Of a DNA stretch of 64,000 bases, positions 33,421-39,318 are shown piece after piece (position 1 is the stretch's first letter; each line of letters begins with the position of its first letter). The notes beneath the pieces are model-generated. The model ran no database searches, was not told the DNA's origin, and saw nothing but the letters and a program-made list of their open reading frames with translations. The position numbers and the translations under genes were made by a program. This DNA is from Baekduia alba (GTDB lineage Bacteria; Actinomycetota; Thermoleophilia; Solirubrobacterales; Solirubrobacteraceae): assembly GCF_028416635.1 (NCBI RefSeq), contig NZ_CP114013.1, forward strand, positions 5,766,001-5,830,000, written 5' to 3'.

Positions 33421-34206
33421 TCAACCGGGCGCCGAAGTGAGACGCGGGCGTCCAACCTCCGACCCTTGTCCACCGACGGCCGCCCGCAGGGGCACGACGG
33501 ATGTCAGACGGGAGACAACGACGATCCGTTGAGCGGCGCTGAACAACGGGTGGCAGGCCGAGAGCACGAGTCGGTCGTAGCCGACGTCGCGCAGAACCTT
33601 GATCGCGTCGGGCGAGACGATGCGCGTGCGCTGGACGCGGTAGGTGAACGTCGCGTAGGGCAGCTCGACCGTGATGCGGTCGTTCGGGTGCAGGTCGTCG
33701 AGGTGGCGGAACGGCGCGAGGTAGGTCGTGCGGTGTCCGGCGATCGCCGTCGTGCCGCCGACGCCGGGCAGCGGCGTGTCGTCGAACGTGCCCGGGCCCT
33801 TGCGCAGGTCGGCCGGGTCAGCGCCCTTCACCACCACGAAGTCCGCGCCCAATCGGGGGATCTTCAGCCGCGCGATCGCGTCGCCCGGCGCGGTGTGCTG
33901 CTGCAGCGAGCGCGCGAGGATCGCGATCCGGCGATCGCTGTCGGTCACGCCGGCCAGCGCGCGGGCCTCCAGCCGCGTCGGGCCCTGGCGCTCCAGCGAC
34001 CGCAGGTCGCCGCGCAGGCCGTTCTGGCGCAGCTTGGTCTGCAGCGCGGTGACCGGCTCCATCCACAGCACGGTCGCCGCGGCGTCGGCCAGGACGAGCA
34101 CGCCGGCGGCGATCAACACGGTGGACAACCGGCGTAGCCGGCGACGCCGGCGCTCGGGGCGCGGCGGCGGGGCGGGGGAGCGTGCGACGGTCGCGATCGG
34201 GCTCAC
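33421..34206 (-). CDS. Class E-like sortase
   Basis: 261 residues. Cytoplasmic Arg-rich start, one transmembrane helix (about 31-50), then a sortase domain with catalytic His in IAGHRTTYLAPF, Cys in LSACHPLFSAAQR and Arg in the same block. Sortases attach surface proteins to the wall through a C-terminal LPxTG/LAxTG-type signal; class E is the housekeeping type in many actinobacteria. The GTG overlaps the M28-like gene stop by 4 nt. No obvious sortase substrate is encoded in this window. Confidence 0.9.
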   Translation of the reverse strand: MSPIATVARSPAPPPRPERRRRRLRRLSTVLIAAGVLVLADAAATVLWMEPVTALQTKLRQNGLRGDLRSLERQGPTRLEARALAGVTDSDRRIAILARSLQQHTAPGDAIARLKIPRLGADFVVVKGADPADLRKGPGTFDDTPLPGVGGTTAIAGHRTTYLAPFRHLDDLHPNDRITVELPYATFTYRVQRTRIVSPDAIKVLRDVGYDRLVLSACHPLFSAAQRIVVVSRLTSVVPLRAAVGGQGSEVGRPRLTSAPG

Positions 34207-35993
34207 CGCCGCAGGGCCGAGCCGAAGTCGCCGAGCGAGCCCGGGCCCGCGTAGGTGACCGGCCCGCGCGTCTTGATCTCCTCGGGCTCCTCGTCCTTGG
34301 GCCGGCGCCGGCGGATCGCGACCAGCCCCGCCGCGACCGCGCAGCCCCAGAAGAAGCTCCACAGCACCCACGAGCCGATCGGCACGTGGCCGCCCGCGAC
34401 GAGGATCGTCCAGAACCAGATCCCGTGCGGCAGGTCGAGCGCGAACGCGTGGCCGTCGAGCGCGAAGACGAGCAGCAGCGGCGCGAGCGCCAGGACGACG
34501 ACCGCCAGCGACGCGCTGCGCGGCAGCCGCAGGTCCGGCGTCAGCGCCCAGAACCACAGGTGCAGGGCGGGGATCGCGAGCGCGGCCGCGTACGGGTTGC
34601 CGACCCACAGCGCCGTCGTCACGGCGAGCGTGGTGAGCCCGATGGCGATCACCGCGCCCGGCGCGTCGGGCTCCCGCCGGCGCGCGCGCAGCGCGCCCGA
34701 GGCGTGCAGCAGCGCGGGCCGAGCGACCAGCCAGCCGAGCGCGAACACCAGCAGGATCGCGAAGAGCGCGACCAGCGGTCCCCCGCCCAGCTCGAGCGCC
34801 GTGCCCGGGATCGGCGCCCTCGGCGCGACCGAGATCAGCCCGATCTTCGCCAGCAGGATCGCGAACGCGCACGCCAGCAGGAACGGGATCGCGCTGGACA
34901 GCGTCCAGACCGTCCACAGCCCCATCGGCTCGTGACGGCGGCGCAGGCGCGCGAGCGCGTCGACGCCCATGAGCAACGGCGGGATCAGCAGCGTCCCGAT
35001 GACGAGCCGCACCGCCCAGCCGGGCAGGACCTTGCCGCGGATGACGAGGTCGTCGCGCGGCGCGGCCGCGAAGTCGCGGAAGTTGTCCAGCGCGTAGAGG
35101 ACGCGCAGCGCCGCGCGCCCGAAGTGCTGCAGGCGGACCTCGCTCGTCCGCTCGTCGGCCGCCGGCGGCCGCTCGCCCGAGGACGACAGCAGCACCGCCG
35201 GTTGGCCGGCGCGCAGGAACTCGCCCTGCTCGGAGATCGTGGCTGGGACCGCCATCCGGCTCCACTGCGTCATCGCCCGCGGCGAGCCACCCTCGGTCCC
35301 GAGCTCGGCGTGCAGCGCGCGCTGCACCGTGCGCTGCAGCTGCAGCGGGGCCTGGCCGCGGCCGTTGGACATGCCGACGACGAACGGCCGCCGCGCGTCG
35401 CGGCCCGCCATGTCGCCGAGGACGACGATCCCGTCCGCGCGCCCCCCGAGGCGCTGCGCCGCCTCGCGCGCGCCGGCGGCGCCGCCGCTGCCGCCCGAGG
35501 TCGAGATGAACGTGATCGTCCGGCGCAGCCGTCCGTCGGCGGCGACGCGCGCGAGCTCGAGCAGCGCGGCGGTGGACGACAGCTCGGCCTGCGCGGGGTG
35601 GGCGGGATCGCCGTGCGCGGCGTCGCGGTGGGCGACCACGACCAGCGGCGGTCCCGGCTGGCCGGGACGCGTCGCGACGACGTTGATCAGGTCGCGCTTG
35701 CCGTCGATCGTGTCGCCCTCGAAGTGGTGCTCGGCGACGGTGCCCGGAACGGTCTCGCGCAGCCGCGCCGCGACGTAGCGCGCGAGGCGGTCGTCGCCGT
35801 CGCTGCCCGGCCGCCGGTCCGCGTAGACCTTGGCGAGATCGGTGAGCGTCTGCTGTGCCCGCAACCCGTCGAAGCCCTCCGGGCTTTGCGTCGTCCCGAT
35901 CGGCCGGGGCCGATCCTGGAGGGAGAACGCCGCCACGAGGAGCGCGAGGAGCACGGGCACGAACGCGACGCGATAGAGGCGCGGTTCGAGCAT
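34203..35993 (-). CDS. Degenerate M28-like peptidase domain fused to a multi-helix membrane domain
   Basis: 596 residues. One N-terminal helix, an extracytoplasmic domain with the M28 aminopeptidase outline (VVVAHRD at 118-124, TAALLELAR at 141-149, DMAGRD at 194-199), then about eight transmembrane helices from residue 325. Metal and catalytic positions look lost: the bridging-Asp segment reads AELSS, the Glu-Glu catalytic segment reads STSGGSGG (164-171), and the final HTP-x-D segment reads PPAADERT. Only His122-x-Asp124 and Asp194 remain. Probably a binding or regulatory pseudo-enzyme. Start at ATG 35993; translated with the sortase. Confidence 0.75.
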   Translation of the reverse strand: MLEPRLYRVAFVPVLLALLVAAFSLQDRPRPIGTTQSPEGFDGLRAQQTLTDLAKVYADRRPGSDGDDRLARYVAARLRETVPGTVAEHHFEGDTIDGKRDLINVVATRPGQPGPPLVVVAHRDAAHGDPAHPAQAELSSTAALLELARVAADGRLRRTITFISTSGGSGGAAGAREAAQRLGGRADGIVVLGDMAGRDARRPFVVGMSNGRGQAPLQLQRTVQRALHAELGTEGGSPRAMTQWSRMAVPATISEQGEFLRAGQPAVLLSSSGERPPAADERTSEVRLQHFGRAALRVLYALDNFRDFAAAPRDDLVIRGKVLPGWAVRLVIGTLLIPPLLMGVDALARLRRRHEPMGLWTVWTLSSAIPFLLACAFAILLAKIGLISVAPRAPIPGTALELGGGPLVALFAILLVFALGWLVARPALLHASGALRARRREPDAPGAVIAIGLTTLAVTTALWVGNPYAAALAIPALHLWFWALTPDLRLPRSASLAVVVLALAPLLLVFALDGHAFALDLPHGIWFWTILVAGGHVPIGSWVLWSFFWGCAVAAGLVAIRRRRPKDEEPEEIKTRGPVTYAGPGSLGDFGSALRR

Positions 35994-35998
35994 CCACC

Positions 35999-36004
35999 TA
36001 CAGT
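35999..36004 (+). promoter_or_regulatory. -10 box (TACAGT) for the response regulator operon
   Basis: TACAGT lies in the 23-nt gap between the divergent M28-like and regulator genes and ends 12 nt before ATG 36017; predicted leader about 6 nt. No convincing -35. Confidence 0.4.
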
Positions 36005-36016
36005 GTGTCTCACAGG

Positions 36017-36733
36017 ATGGCCGAACGCGCACCCAGAATCCTGCTGGCCGACGACGAGCAGTCGATCCAGACGCTCCTGAGCTTCCCGCTGCGCAAGGAC
36101 GGCTACGAGGTGACGACCGCCTCCGACGGCCGCGAGGCGCTGGCGCGCTTCCAGGAGGGCAAGTTCGACCTCGTGGTCCTCGACGTGATGATGCCGCGGA
36201 TGGACGGGCTGGAGGTGTGCCGCCGGATCCGGGCGCGCAACACGGTCCCGATCATCATGCTCACCGCCAAGGCCGAGGAGATCGACAAGGTCCTCGGGCT
36301 GGAGCTCGGCGCCGACGACTACATCACCAAGCCGTTCTCGCTGCGCGAGTTCCGCTCACGCGTCCGGGCCGCGCTGCGCCGCGCCGGGATGCAGACGCAG
36401 TCGGCCGATCCCGACGCCGACGAGCAGCCGCTCACCGTCCACGAGCTGGAGATCGACCCGGCCAAGCGCGCGGTGCGCGTGCGCGACACCACGGTCGAGC
36501 TGACGTTCGTGGAGTTCGAGATCCTCAACGCGCTGGCCCGCAACCCCGGCCGGGTCTTCACGCGCGACATGCTCCTCACGCGCATCTGGGGCGACAGCGC
36601 CTACCGGGACCCGCGCACGATCGACGTGCACATCCGGCATCTGCGCGAGAAGCTCGAGACCGACGCCAAGGACCCGGAGTACCTGTTCACGGTGCGCGGC
36701 GTGGGCTACCGCTTCAGAGACGAAGCGCGATAG
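36017..36733 (+). CDS. OmpR/PhoB-family response regulator
   Basis: 238 residues. Receiver domain (ADDEQ; phospho-Asp56 in VLDVMMPRMDG; Thr in MLTAKAEE; Lys in YITKPFS) and a C-terminal winged-helix DNA-binding domain (about 140-238, TVELTFVEFEILNALARNPG, RTIDVHIRHLREKL, VRGVGYRF). The start with MAERAPRILL is the first ATG that preserves the domain. It heads an operon with a histidine kinase and an HtrA-like protease, the same order as MprA-MprB-PepD in mycobacteria. Confidence 0.94.
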   Translation: MAERAPRILLADDEQSIQTLLSFPLRKDGYEVTTASDGREALARFQEGKFDLVVLDVMMPRMDGLEVCRRIRARNTVPIIMLTAKAEEIDKVLGLELGADDYITKPFSLREFRSRVRAALRRAGMQTQSADPDADEQPLTVHELEIDPAKRAVRVRDTTVELTFVEFEILNALARNPGRVFTRDMLLTRIWGDSAYRDPRTIDVHIRHLREKLETDAKDPEYLFTVRGVGYRFRDEAR

Positions 36734-36751: not shown

Positions 36752-38161
36752 ATGCGATCGCTGCGCACCCGACTGACGCTGTCGCTGTTCGTGATCGTCC
36801 TGGGGGCGGTCGCGATCGTGAGCGTCGGCGTCCTGAAGTCGCTCGACGGCGACCTGCGCGACGCGGCGCTCGAGCAGCTGATGACGACCGCGCGGATCAA
36901 CTCGCGCGGGATCGACATCGCGATCGACCGCGGGGACTCGGCCCGCCACATCGACACGCTCGTGCGCGACGCCGCCGACCAGGCCACCGCGCGGGTCACG
37001 CTGCTCGGCCTGTACTCCAACCCGGGCAACCTGCGCACCTACCCGAAGTCGGACTCGACGCGGCAGGTGGAGATCCGCGACCTCCAGTTCGACGTCGCGG
37101 TCGACGCGGCCCAGACCGGCCGGCCGCAGACCGCGGTCGAGGCCGGCGACGCGGGGCGCGTCGGCGAGGCCGCGGTCCCGCTGATCTACGAGGACCCGCG
37201 CACGCACAAGCGCGTCGTGGGCTCGGTGATCGTCTTCTCGCGGCCGCTGGACGTCGTCGACCGCGACCTCCAGGTCGTGCGCGACCGCGTCCTCACCGCG
37301 GCGCTCGCCGCGCTGGTCCTGGCCGCGCTGGCCGCGTGGATGGTCGCGCGCAACGTGTCGCTGCGCGTCCGGCGCCTGGAGGTGGTCGCCGACCGCGTCG
37401 CCCAGGGCGACCTGACCGCGCGCTTCCCGGTCGACGCGCACGACGAGCTCGGCCAGCTCGCCGACACGCTGGAGCAGATGCGCCGCCAGCTCGCCGAGCT
37501 CGACGACGCGCGCAAGCGCTTCATCGCGACCGCGTCGCACGAGCTGCGCACGCCGCTGTTCTCGCTCGGCGGGTTCCTCGAGCTGCTCGAGGAGGAGGAG
37601 CTCGACGAGGAGGACCGGCGCCGGTTCATCACGCAGCTGCGCCAGCAGGTCCTGCGCATGCAGAAGCTGGCCACCGACCTGCTCGACCTCTCGCGGCTGG
37701 AGGCGGGCTCGCTGGAGCTGCGGCGCGAGCCGACCGACCTGGGCGACGTCGCGCGCCTGGTCGCCGACGAGTTCGCGCCCGCGCTGGTCGCCCACGACGC
37801 GCACCTGGAGCTGCGGCTGCCGCCTGATCCCGTCGAGGCCGACTGCGACCCCGAGCGCGTCGCGCAGGTCCTGCGCATCCTCATCGACAACGCGATCACG
37901 CACACGCCGCCCGGCACCGACCTGGTGGTGTCGGCCTCGCGCCGCGGCGATCAGGCGCGCATGGGAGTGGGGGACTTCGGACCGGGTATCCACCGGACGA
38001 TGCTGCCCCGGATCTTCGAGCCGTTCGTGACCTCCGACGATGCCCAGGGGTCCGGCTTGGGCCTCGCGATCGCCAGCGAGCTGGCGGAGCGCATGGACGG
38101 CCGGCTCGCGGTGGACTCCCATCCGGGGCGCACGACGTTCACGCTGGAGCTGCCGGCATGA
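36752..38161 (+). CDS. Sensor histidine kinase, HAMP type
   Basis: 469 residues. Two transmembrane helices (about 8-28 and 182-200) bracket a roughly 150-residue external sensor region; HAMP 200-252; H-box [13 protein letters not shown] with His263; N box IDNAITH; G1 GVGDFGPGI; G2 GSGLGLAIA. It autophosphorylates and activates the adjacent OmpR-type regulator, probably in response to envelope conditions. The TGA overlaps the ATG of the protease gene. Confidence 0.94.
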   Translation: MRSLRTRLTLSLFVIVLGAVAIVSVGVLKSLDGDLRDAALEQLMTTARINSRGIDIAIDRGDSARHIDTLVRDAADQATARVTLLGLYSNPGNLRTYPKSDSTRQVEIRDLQFDVAVDAAQTGRPQTAVEAGDAGRVGEAAVPLIYEDPRTHKRVVGSVIVFSRPLDVVDRDLQVVRDRVLTAALAALVLAALAAWMVARNVSLRVRRLEVVADRVAQGDLTARFPVDAHDELGQLADTLEQMRRQLAELDDARKRFIATASHELRTPLFSLGGFLELLEEEELDEEDRRRFITQLRQQVLRMQKLATDLLDLSRLEAGSLELRREPTDLGDVARLVADEFAPALVAHDAHLELRLPPDPVEADCDPERVAQVLRILIDNAITHTPPGTDLVVSASRRGDQARMGVGDFGPGIHRTMLPRIFEPFVTSDDAQGSGLGLAIASELAERMDGRLAVDSHPGRTTFTLELPA

Positions 38162-39318
38162 CGCGTGCGGTCGCCGGGACGCTGGCGGCGATCGCGCTGG
38201 TCGCGACGGGGTGTGGGGGCTCGAGCAAGGACGACAACAAGACGGTCGCCTCGACGGTGGACCGCACGACCCGCGTCGAGGTCGTCAAGGGCGCCGACGC
38301 CGCCGGGCGGTTCGACCCGCAGGCGATCTACCGCCGCGACTCGCCGGGCGTCGTGACGATCCTGTCGGCCTTCGGCGACTCGGGCGGTTCGGCCGGCGAC
38401 GCCGGGCTCGGCTCCGGGTTCGTGATCTCCGCCGGCGGCGAGATCGCCACCAACGCGCACGTCGTCACCACCGGCGAGGGCGCGTCGATCCGCAAGGCGT
38501 CGCAGGTCTTCGTCCGCTTCGGCGACCGCAACCAGGTCAGCGGGCGGATCCTCGGCTTCGACCCGTTCTCCGACGTCGCGCTGGTCAAGGTCGACCCCGC
38601 GGGGCTGACGCTGCGCCCGCTGGGGCTCGGCTCGAGCGAGAACGTGAAGGTCGGCGAGCCGGTGGCCGCCATCGGCTCGCCGTTCGGCGAGGAGCGCTCG
38701 CTCTCGGTCGGCGTGATCTCGGCGACCGACCGCGCGATCGAGTCGCTCACCGGCTTCCAGACCTCGGGCGCGCTGCAGACCGATGCGGCGATCAACAGCG
38801 GCAACTCGGGCGGGCCGCTGCTGGACTCCGGCGGGCGCGTGCTCGGCATCAACTCCCAGATCCGCTCGTCGTCGGGCTCGGGCAGCGGCGTCGGGTTCGC
38901 GGTCCCGGTCGACGTGGTCCGGCGCTCGCTGGCCCAGCTGCGCAAGGCGGGCAAGGCCGAGTACCCGTACTTGGGCGTGTCGACCTCCGGCGTGTACCCG
39001 CAGCTCGCGGAGCGCTTCGACCTCGGCACCGATCACGGCGCGTGGATCCAGGAGGTCGTCGCCGGCGGGCCGGGCGACCGCGCGGGCCTGAAGGCCGGCG
39101 CGCGGCGCGAGACGTTCCAGGAGCAGCCGTGGCGCGTCGGCGGCGACGTCGTGACGAAGATCGACGGCGCGGACGTCCGCGAGGACGCCGATCTCGCGCG
39201 CTCGCTGGACGGCAAGGCGCCAGGAGGCAAGGTCAGGCTGACGCTTGTGCGCGACGGCGAGGCGCGCGATGTGACCGTGACGCTCGGAACCCGCCCGCTG
39301 CAGTCCCCGCGGGGGTAG
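38158..39318 (+). CDS. HtrA/DegP-like S1C serine protease, lipoprotein
   Basis: 386 residues. Lipobox LVATGCGG with Cys19 suggests membrane anchoring by lipid. Trypsin-like triad: His101 in TNAHVV, Asp139 in DVALVKVD, Ser217 in INSGNSGGPL. One PDZ domain follows (about 280-375). It probably degrades or refolds misfolded exported proteins. Co-transcribed with the two-component pair upstream, so protease output is likely part of an envelope-stress response. The TAG stop forms the first three bases of the next gene's -10 box. Confidence 0.93.
   Translation: MTRAVAGTLAAIALVATGCGGSSKDDNKTVASTVDRTTRVEVVKGADAAGRFDPQAIYRRDSPGVVTILSAFGDSGGSAGDAGLGSGFVISAGGEIATNAHVVTTGEGASIRKASQVFVRFGDRNQVSGRILGFDPFSDVALVKVDPAGLTLRPLGLGSSENVKVGEPVAAIGSPFGEERSLSVGVISATDRAIESLTGFQTSGALQTDAAINSGNSGGPLLDSGGRVLGINSQIRSSSGSGSGVGFAVPVDVVRRSLAQLRKAGKAEYPYLGVSTSGVYPQLAERFDLGTDHGAWIQEVVAGGPGDRAGLKAGARRETFQEQPWRVGGDVVTKIDGADVREDADLARSLDGKAPGGKVRLTLVRDGEARDVTVTLGTRPLQSPRG

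Follow-up and report, generated by a model that had tools for sequence, protein, structure and literature searches.

A class-restricted membrane protein with a dead M28-like domain, a GPAA1-like predicted fold and a recurrently overlapping sortase gene

The window analyzed here is a stretch of 64,000 nucleotides of the Baekduia alba genome (contig NZ_CP114013.1, positions 5,766,001 to 5,830,000), and our subject is the gene that occupies positions 34203–35993 of its minus strand, with an ATG at 35993, a TGA at 34205–34203, and a product of 596 residues. The product, which we call the pseudo-M28 protein, is a predicted membrane protein whose M28-like domain has lost its catalytic site. The new point is that its model resembles GPAA1 of the human glycosylphosphatidylinositol (GPI) transamidase over the whole protein and not in the M28-like domain alone. 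In addition, the gene recurrently overlaps a sortase gene, it has a response regulator as a still more constant neighbour, and it often ends in a fixed cytosolic tail. Arguing by analogy with GPAA1, we tentatively propose that the protein is a non-catalytic membrane scaffold. The features are collected in Table 1.

Predicted structure and the likeness to GPAA1

An initial annotation of this DNA had placed the open reading frame exactly, on the right strand and at the right length, and had proposed an M28 fold. The Pfam M28 model (PF04389) matches residues 104–229 only, scoring 29.9 bits where 21.3 is the cut-off. Hydropathy and the positive-inside pattern predict a first transmembrane helix (TM1), an outer domain, and then TM2–TM8, with both termini in the cytosol. 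The annotation had eight helices follow the M28-like domain; the eight are a total, of which one precedes it and seven come after.

We built an AlphaFold2 model using 102 relatives, and obtained a mean predicted local distance difference test (pLDDT) score of 93.6 and a predicted template modelling (pTM) score of 0.91 for the full length. When the soluble domain is compared with known structures by VIA-align, the active zinc aminopeptidases come first, and the overlay on the active enzyme 6hc6 (Z 30.3, root-mean-square deviation 2.4 over 247 residues) shows an M28 fold that is retained. When the whole chain is compared by Foldseek, GPAA1 from the human GPI transamidase takes the four top places among full-length PDB matches (chains 8imx_G, 8imy_G, 7w72_A and 7wld_G; E-values from 1.1e-13 to 1.8e-12, TM-scores 0.61–0.64). 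The best row is 8imx_G, with an E-value of 1.1e-13 and TM-scores of 0.62/0.64 over 640 columns. The soluble M28 enzymes rank below these chains, the best of them at 9.3e-10.

To find out whether the M28-like domain alone drove this result, the membrane part (residues 312–568) was modelled separately (pLDDT 93.6, pTM 0.90). VIA-align places the GPAA1 chains at ranks 1–4 with this model too, with Z from 12.2 to 10.7 over 210–223 of the 257 residues, opposite GPAA1 residues 357–621, and the next row is an unrelated protein at Z 6.6. No solved structure of ERMP1/Pff1 is among the PDB matches listed, and the top rank of GPAA1 holds among those. GPAA1 is reported to have eight transmembrane helices and no working zinc site, and its membrane domain was described in 2022, in a cryo-electron microscopy paper on the GPI transamidase, as having no recognizable structural relative (PMC9098846). 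We found no literature linking GPAA1 to bacteria.

Loss of the catalytic site

Ligand positions were read from one alignment in which four M28 proteins encoded by this genome were the positive controls, L001 and L002 having a canonical set of ligands, and conservation was counted over 111 aligned relatives. What remains of the M28 ligand residues is His122 (the first ligand), Asp124 (supporting) and Asp194, exactly as the annotation had numbered them. It had also reported the bridging Asp, the Glu pair and the final His as missing, and at those places the alignment gives Ala136, Gly168-Ser169 and the segment PPAADERT.

The same losses extend to the relatives. Glu is found at position 168 or 169 in 0 of the 111, and the final His is lost in all of them, while His122 is retained in 61. 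In the deep branch f7 a DNxSG motif with the bridging Asp is still there and the Glu pair is gone. A search of f6, f9 and f10, the families that diverge most, for members with a complete active site found none, the Glu pair being gone there too. Because no relative has a Glu at either Glu position, the catalytic site is, as far as aligned sequences tell, one that was lost before the class diversified, with the remaining ligands drifting later. The annotation had read the protein as a pseudo-peptidase, which the alignment supports and shows to be an ancestral condition of the family. Arg123, Asp124 and Gln256, on the other hand, are close to invariant (Table 1), and the pocket may therefore have been retained in order to bind something.

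Also in this genome, the M28-like proteins L003 and L004 share the variant motif GANDAAAAVG together with an intact-looking Glu pair, and are possibly cyclase-like.

Distribution in the class

Of 229 class genomes (Solirubrobacterales and relatives) that are at least 90% complete, 196 give strong matches to a profile of 102 relatives, with weak M28-like matches in f5 and f2 excluded; within the family, 139 of 146 genomes have the protein. The profile has no strong match in f5, nor in three genera of f2. Carriers have it nearly always as a single-copy, full-length, open gene. That the gene is maintained, as the annotation held, is borne out by this conservation, and chance is excluded.

Across the phylum (396 genomes), the matches to a profile of the transmembrane part are confined to the class Thermoleophilia, apart from three borderline fragments, and no wider bacterial family was found beyond the class. 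Because of this result, we regard the pseudo-M28 protein, on profile evidence, as a class-restricted core membrane protein, so far uncharacterised. A contig search with a close alignment (A4) gave 49 loci, with Solirubrobacterales or Actinomycetota in almost every title, and a contig search with the single protein as query gave no matches. The nearest named relatives that the alignment search turned up are Conexibacter sp., Paraconexibacter antarcticus and Svornostia abyssi. The gene is also carried by four metagenome-assembled records titled Bifidobacterium breve (L181, L184, L188 and L199), which look mislabelled.

The overlapping sortase gene

The annotation had proposed that the gene is translationally coupled to a sortase, and the four-base GTGA that the two genes share (34206–34203) bears this out. 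The sortase passes the general models PF04203 and TIGR01076, and its best NCBIfam match is to the class E model NF033747, with 117 bits, under the cut-off of 160. Counted over loci with enough sequence, a sortase gene lies downstream of the pseudo-M28 gene in 24 of the 39 f1 loci and 5 of the 9 f7 loci, and four-base overlaps recur in both families; adjacency is also seen in f6 and f8. In f4 a sortase follows in 1 of 10 loci, about 1 kb further on, and in the loci examined from f2, f3, f9 and f11 there is none downstream.

In a tree of the sortases the adjacent copies cluster, with 3 changes versus 15.9 after shuffling and 0 of 500 shuffles as low, although near relatives also favour clustering and one adjacent copy (L234, from f8) was entered as non-adjacent. 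We considered a single origin of the adjacency and did not adopt it: the tree needs 3 changes, its inner forks are weak, and the adjacency may be either ancestral or repeatedly gained. In the literature searched, class E sortases are given no M28-like partner, and we found no paper linking Thermoleophilia to sortases.

The conserved cytosolic tail

The f1 proteins and most of those of f4 have RGPxxYAGPGSLGGTxSALRR at their end, past a linker that varies. The DNA pattern of the tail core occurs in 61 of 78 genomes of the family, always at the pseudo-M28 gene (a reversed control finds none), and once per genome except in one genome with two copies of the gene. Elsewhere in the Baekduia alba genome the tail pattern gives two DNA matches, in short frames that are apparently non-coding. 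Identity is 0.83 in the tail, versus 0.17 in the linker, 0.45 in the M28-like part and 0.38 in TM2–TM8, values taken from motif-bearing rows only, which inflates that of the tail. The codon differences within the tail are mostly synonymous. By the predicted topology the tail is on the cytosolic side, and its confidence in the model is low, as that of a disordered end would be. It is retained where the genome has no sortase, as in G078 and G143. Docking sites typically look like this, a short fixed peptide behind a linker that varies, and we infer from the sequences that the tail may be one.

Loci L075–L078 (genus g20, Patulibacter-like) have lost the tail, and several of them have long charged or Pro-rich C-terminal extensions.

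The divergent two-component genes

Upstream, and on the opposite strand, the pseudo-M28 gene faces a response regulator gene, behind which come a histidine kinase gene and a gene for a protease of the HtrA/Do family. A response regulator is found beside 93 of the 123 fetched loci and in most families, with starts mostly 15–130 bp apart, and this includes families without an adjacent sortase. It is also there in f6 and f8; beside the f9 and f10 copies none was found. It is a more constant neighbour than the sortase.

These neighbours can be explained differently. The pseudo-M28 protein could be a sensor or regulator of the envelope that partners the divergent WalRK/MtrAB-type system and HtrA in the membrane, with a dead M28 pocket that binds envelope peptides or cell-wall precursors and signals via the tail, and with the sortase as a later passenger. 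We find this somewhat unlikely. The constancy of the response regulator, the MtrB/WalK-like kinase followed by the HtrA gene, and a tail conserved with or without a genomic sortase all speak for it. However, genes that lie divergently side by side need not have products that interact, a response regulator was found beside neither the f9 nor the f10 copies, and no known motif ties the tail to kinases.

Two side observations concern this region. Just 23 bp (35994–36016) separate the divergent starts, and elsewhere in the class, too, the gap is repeatedly short, so that the promoters must overlap coding sequence or else the transcripts must be nearly leaderless. And in L113–L130 (from f7 and f9), read by eye and not searched, a MoeA-like gene and a family-2 glycosyltransferase gene seem to be near, replacing thiL.

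Table 1. Features of the pseudo-M28 gene, its product and its neighbours, in coordinates of the window
Feature	Position	Strand	Basis and remarks
Sortase, 261 residues, class-E-like	33421–34206	−	catalytic His (GHR), Cys (LSAC) and Arg (QRIVV) present
GTGA overlap of pseudo-M28 stop and sortase GTG start, 4 bases	34203–34206	−	recurs in other genera and families
Pseudo-M28 protein, coding sequence	34203–35993	−	open reading frame and relatives; 596 residues
C-terminal tail RGPxxYAGPGSLGxxxSALRR, residues 576–596	34206–34268	−	pattern search, relatives
Seven-transmembrane domain, residues 312–561	34311–35060	−	model comparison: fold of GPAA1 membrane domain
M28-like extracytoplasmic domain, residues 31–311	35061–35903	−	Pfam, AlphaFold2 model, VIA-align Z up to 30 vs active M28 enzymes
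PPAADERT, residues 276–283, segment of lost final His ligand	35145–35168	−	translation and alignment
Gln256, near former active site, at SDH-type His position of active M28 enzymes	35226–35228	−	alignment; 109/111 relatives
Asp194, retained ligand Asp	35412–35414	−	alignment; 72/111 relatives
Gly168-Ser169 at catalytic Glu and ligand Glu positions	35487–35492	−	alignment
Ala136 at bridging-Asp position	35586–35588	−	alignment with canonical-ligand M28 proteins of same genome
His122-Arg123-Asp124, His the retained first ligand	35622–35630	−	alignment; Arg123 110/111, Asp124 105/111 relatives
TM1, residues 10–28	35910–35966	−	hydropathy and charge pattern, helix in model; N-terminus predicted cytosolic
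Divergent response regulator, WalR/MtrA type	36017–36733	+	start 23 bp from pseudo-M28 gene; conserved neighbour across class
Histidine kinase, MtrB/WalK type	36752–38161	+	profile matches
HtrA/Do-family serine protease with PDZ	38158–39318	+	profile matches

Proposed mechanism and its alternatives

The reading that we prefer, though at slightly less than even odds, is that of a non-catalytic membrane scaffold that would serve the coupled sortase where there is one. The dead M28 protein with its eight transmembrane helices would act on the outer membrane face. There, the remodelled pocket (Arg123, Asp124, Gln256) and the seven-transmembrane part would bind a secreted protein, a peptide or a lipid-linked partner, which would not be cut, and the conserved tail would dock a partner in the cytosol. 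Where a sortase overlaps, the scaffold would most likely be its membrane subunit, presenting substrate or cell-wall acceptor to the sortase cysteine, on the model of GPAA1 serving the cysteine transamidase PIGK. In sortase-free genomes the protein would have an envelope job tied to the neighbouring WalRK/MtrAB-type system, and this would be the older role.

Several results weigh against this proposal. On the structural side, a Foldseek search with the membrane part alone finds nothing significant (best E-value 0.39), and the VIA-align Z of 12 for that part is under the caution level of 13 for helical domains. Pfam Gaa1 (PF04114) has no match in the Baekduia alba genome at E-values up to 10, and the transmembrane-part profile, compared with the PDB by sequence, gives no matches, GPAA1 included. 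The top rank of GPAA1 may also reflect how few M28 proteins with several transmembrane helices have been solved. On the genomic side, 135 of the 196 class genomes with the pseudo-M28 protein also have a Pfam sortase and 61 do not, and the co-occurrence has a Fisher p of 0.03, uncorrected for relatedness.

What can be claimed, then? Since the sequence gives no link, by Pfam Gaa1 or by the transmembrane profile, we claim an architecture and a probable fold shared with GPAA1, and not Gaa1 membership; as a structural statement, based on the models, this is very probable. The sortase link, as judged from gene order and genome content, is real and recurrent but not obligatory, and a sortase-only role is too narrow because of those 61 carriers. 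The annotation had suggested a role in presenting or holding sortase substrates, rather than cutting them. Holding instead of cutting is supported by the parallel with GPAA1, whose architecture is the same and whose zinc site does not work either (PMC9098846). The role in sortase substrates fares less evenly: the recurrent overlap and the clustering of adjacent sortases favour it, and the sortase-free genomes and the more constant response regulator do not.

A stronger version would make the protein a true bacterial homologue of GPAA1, forming with the cysteine transpeptidase a membrane transamidase complex that is the prokaryotic counterpart of the GPI transamidase, or a distant relative of its ancestor. 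The sortase would cut and ligate, and the dead M28/seven-transmembrane subunit would present the protein or the lipid-linked acceptor. We consider this unlikely.

Could the protein instead serve secreted proteins at large, as a membrane chaperone or a receptor for substrates comparable to nicastrin and nicalin, with no relation to the sortase or the two-component system? Pseudo-peptidase receptors with M28-like domains are known, and 3 of 11 deep-branch members (f7/f11) touch Pfam Nicastrin weakly, with a best E-value of 0.0054. The Baekduia alba protein itself has no match to Pfam Nicastrin at E-values up to 1. Moreover, nicastrin and nicalin have a single C-terminal transmembrane helix versus one plus seven here, and such a role leaves the recurrent sortase overlap unexplained. 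We think it improbable.

That the protein is still an enzyme, with alternative residues completing the metal site of a divergent peptidase, cyclase or peptide-bond-forming enzyme, is very improbable. His122, Asp124 and Asp194 are present, the f7 branch keeps its bridging Asp, and GPAA1 itself was at one time proposed to act as a peptide synthetase (PMC7522609). But a catalytic metal site would be conserved, and the retention of His122 and Asp194 in only part of the relatives, with no Glu at 168–169 in any, is not what such a site would show. Finally, a decaying pseudogene or annotation artefact, which the weak Pfam score and the missing catalytic residues might bring to mind, is ruled out by full-length conservation in 196 of 229 class genomes, by the nearly invariant residues and by the mostly synonymous changes in the tail.

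If the scaffold reading is right, these bacteria would offer a genetically tractable system for studying how a dead M28 scaffold serves a cysteine transpeptidase. The function of GPAA1 is still debated, and a bacterial protein with its whole-length architecture and a far simpler transpeptidase would be a lead on its origin. It would also give an uncharacterised core membrane protein, present throughout a class, a role that can be tested.

Comparison with known systems

The coupled sortase resembles the class E sortases (SrtE) of actinobacteria in its best-scoring model and its catalytic triad, and differs from them in falling below the model cut-off. The proteobacterial dedicated sortase system (TIGR03784/TIGR03785) also has a sortase beside a two-component system, but the genes described here are not members, with scores of 68 against a cut-off of 158 for the sortase and 99 against 612 for the kinase.

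Like the transferrin receptor, nicastrin and nicalin, the pseudo-M28 protein has an M28 domain that is dead and lies outside the membrane, and the transferrin receptor TfR1 is its best sequence-profile match in the PDB (E-value 2e-15); those proteins are single-span and have no seven-transmembrane domain. With the M28 zinc aminopeptidases (BSAP 6hc6, SGAP 1tkf and AM-1 2ek8) it shares the fold of the soluble domain (Z 29–30 over about 245 residues). Unlike them, it has no bridging Asp, Glu pair or final His, and it has an anchor of eight transmembrane helices.

GPAA1/Gaa1 (8imx, 8imy, 7w72, 7wld) differs in sequence, with about 15% identity and no Pfam Gaa1 match. Its bacterial lookalike has a cell wall in place of the GPI anchor, an order-specific conserved cytosolic tail, and for a neighbour a sortase, which has an unrelated fold, no PIGK-type protein being detected in the Baekduia alba genome with PF01650 (Peptidase_C13). 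The likeness is that of the whole protein as modelled: one N-terminal transmembrane helix, an extracytoplasmic M28-like domain whose metal site does not work, and seven transmembrane helices, in matching order. And as GPAA1 has a cysteine transamidase for its partner in eukaryotes, the bacterial protein is often encoded together with a cysteine transpeptidase.
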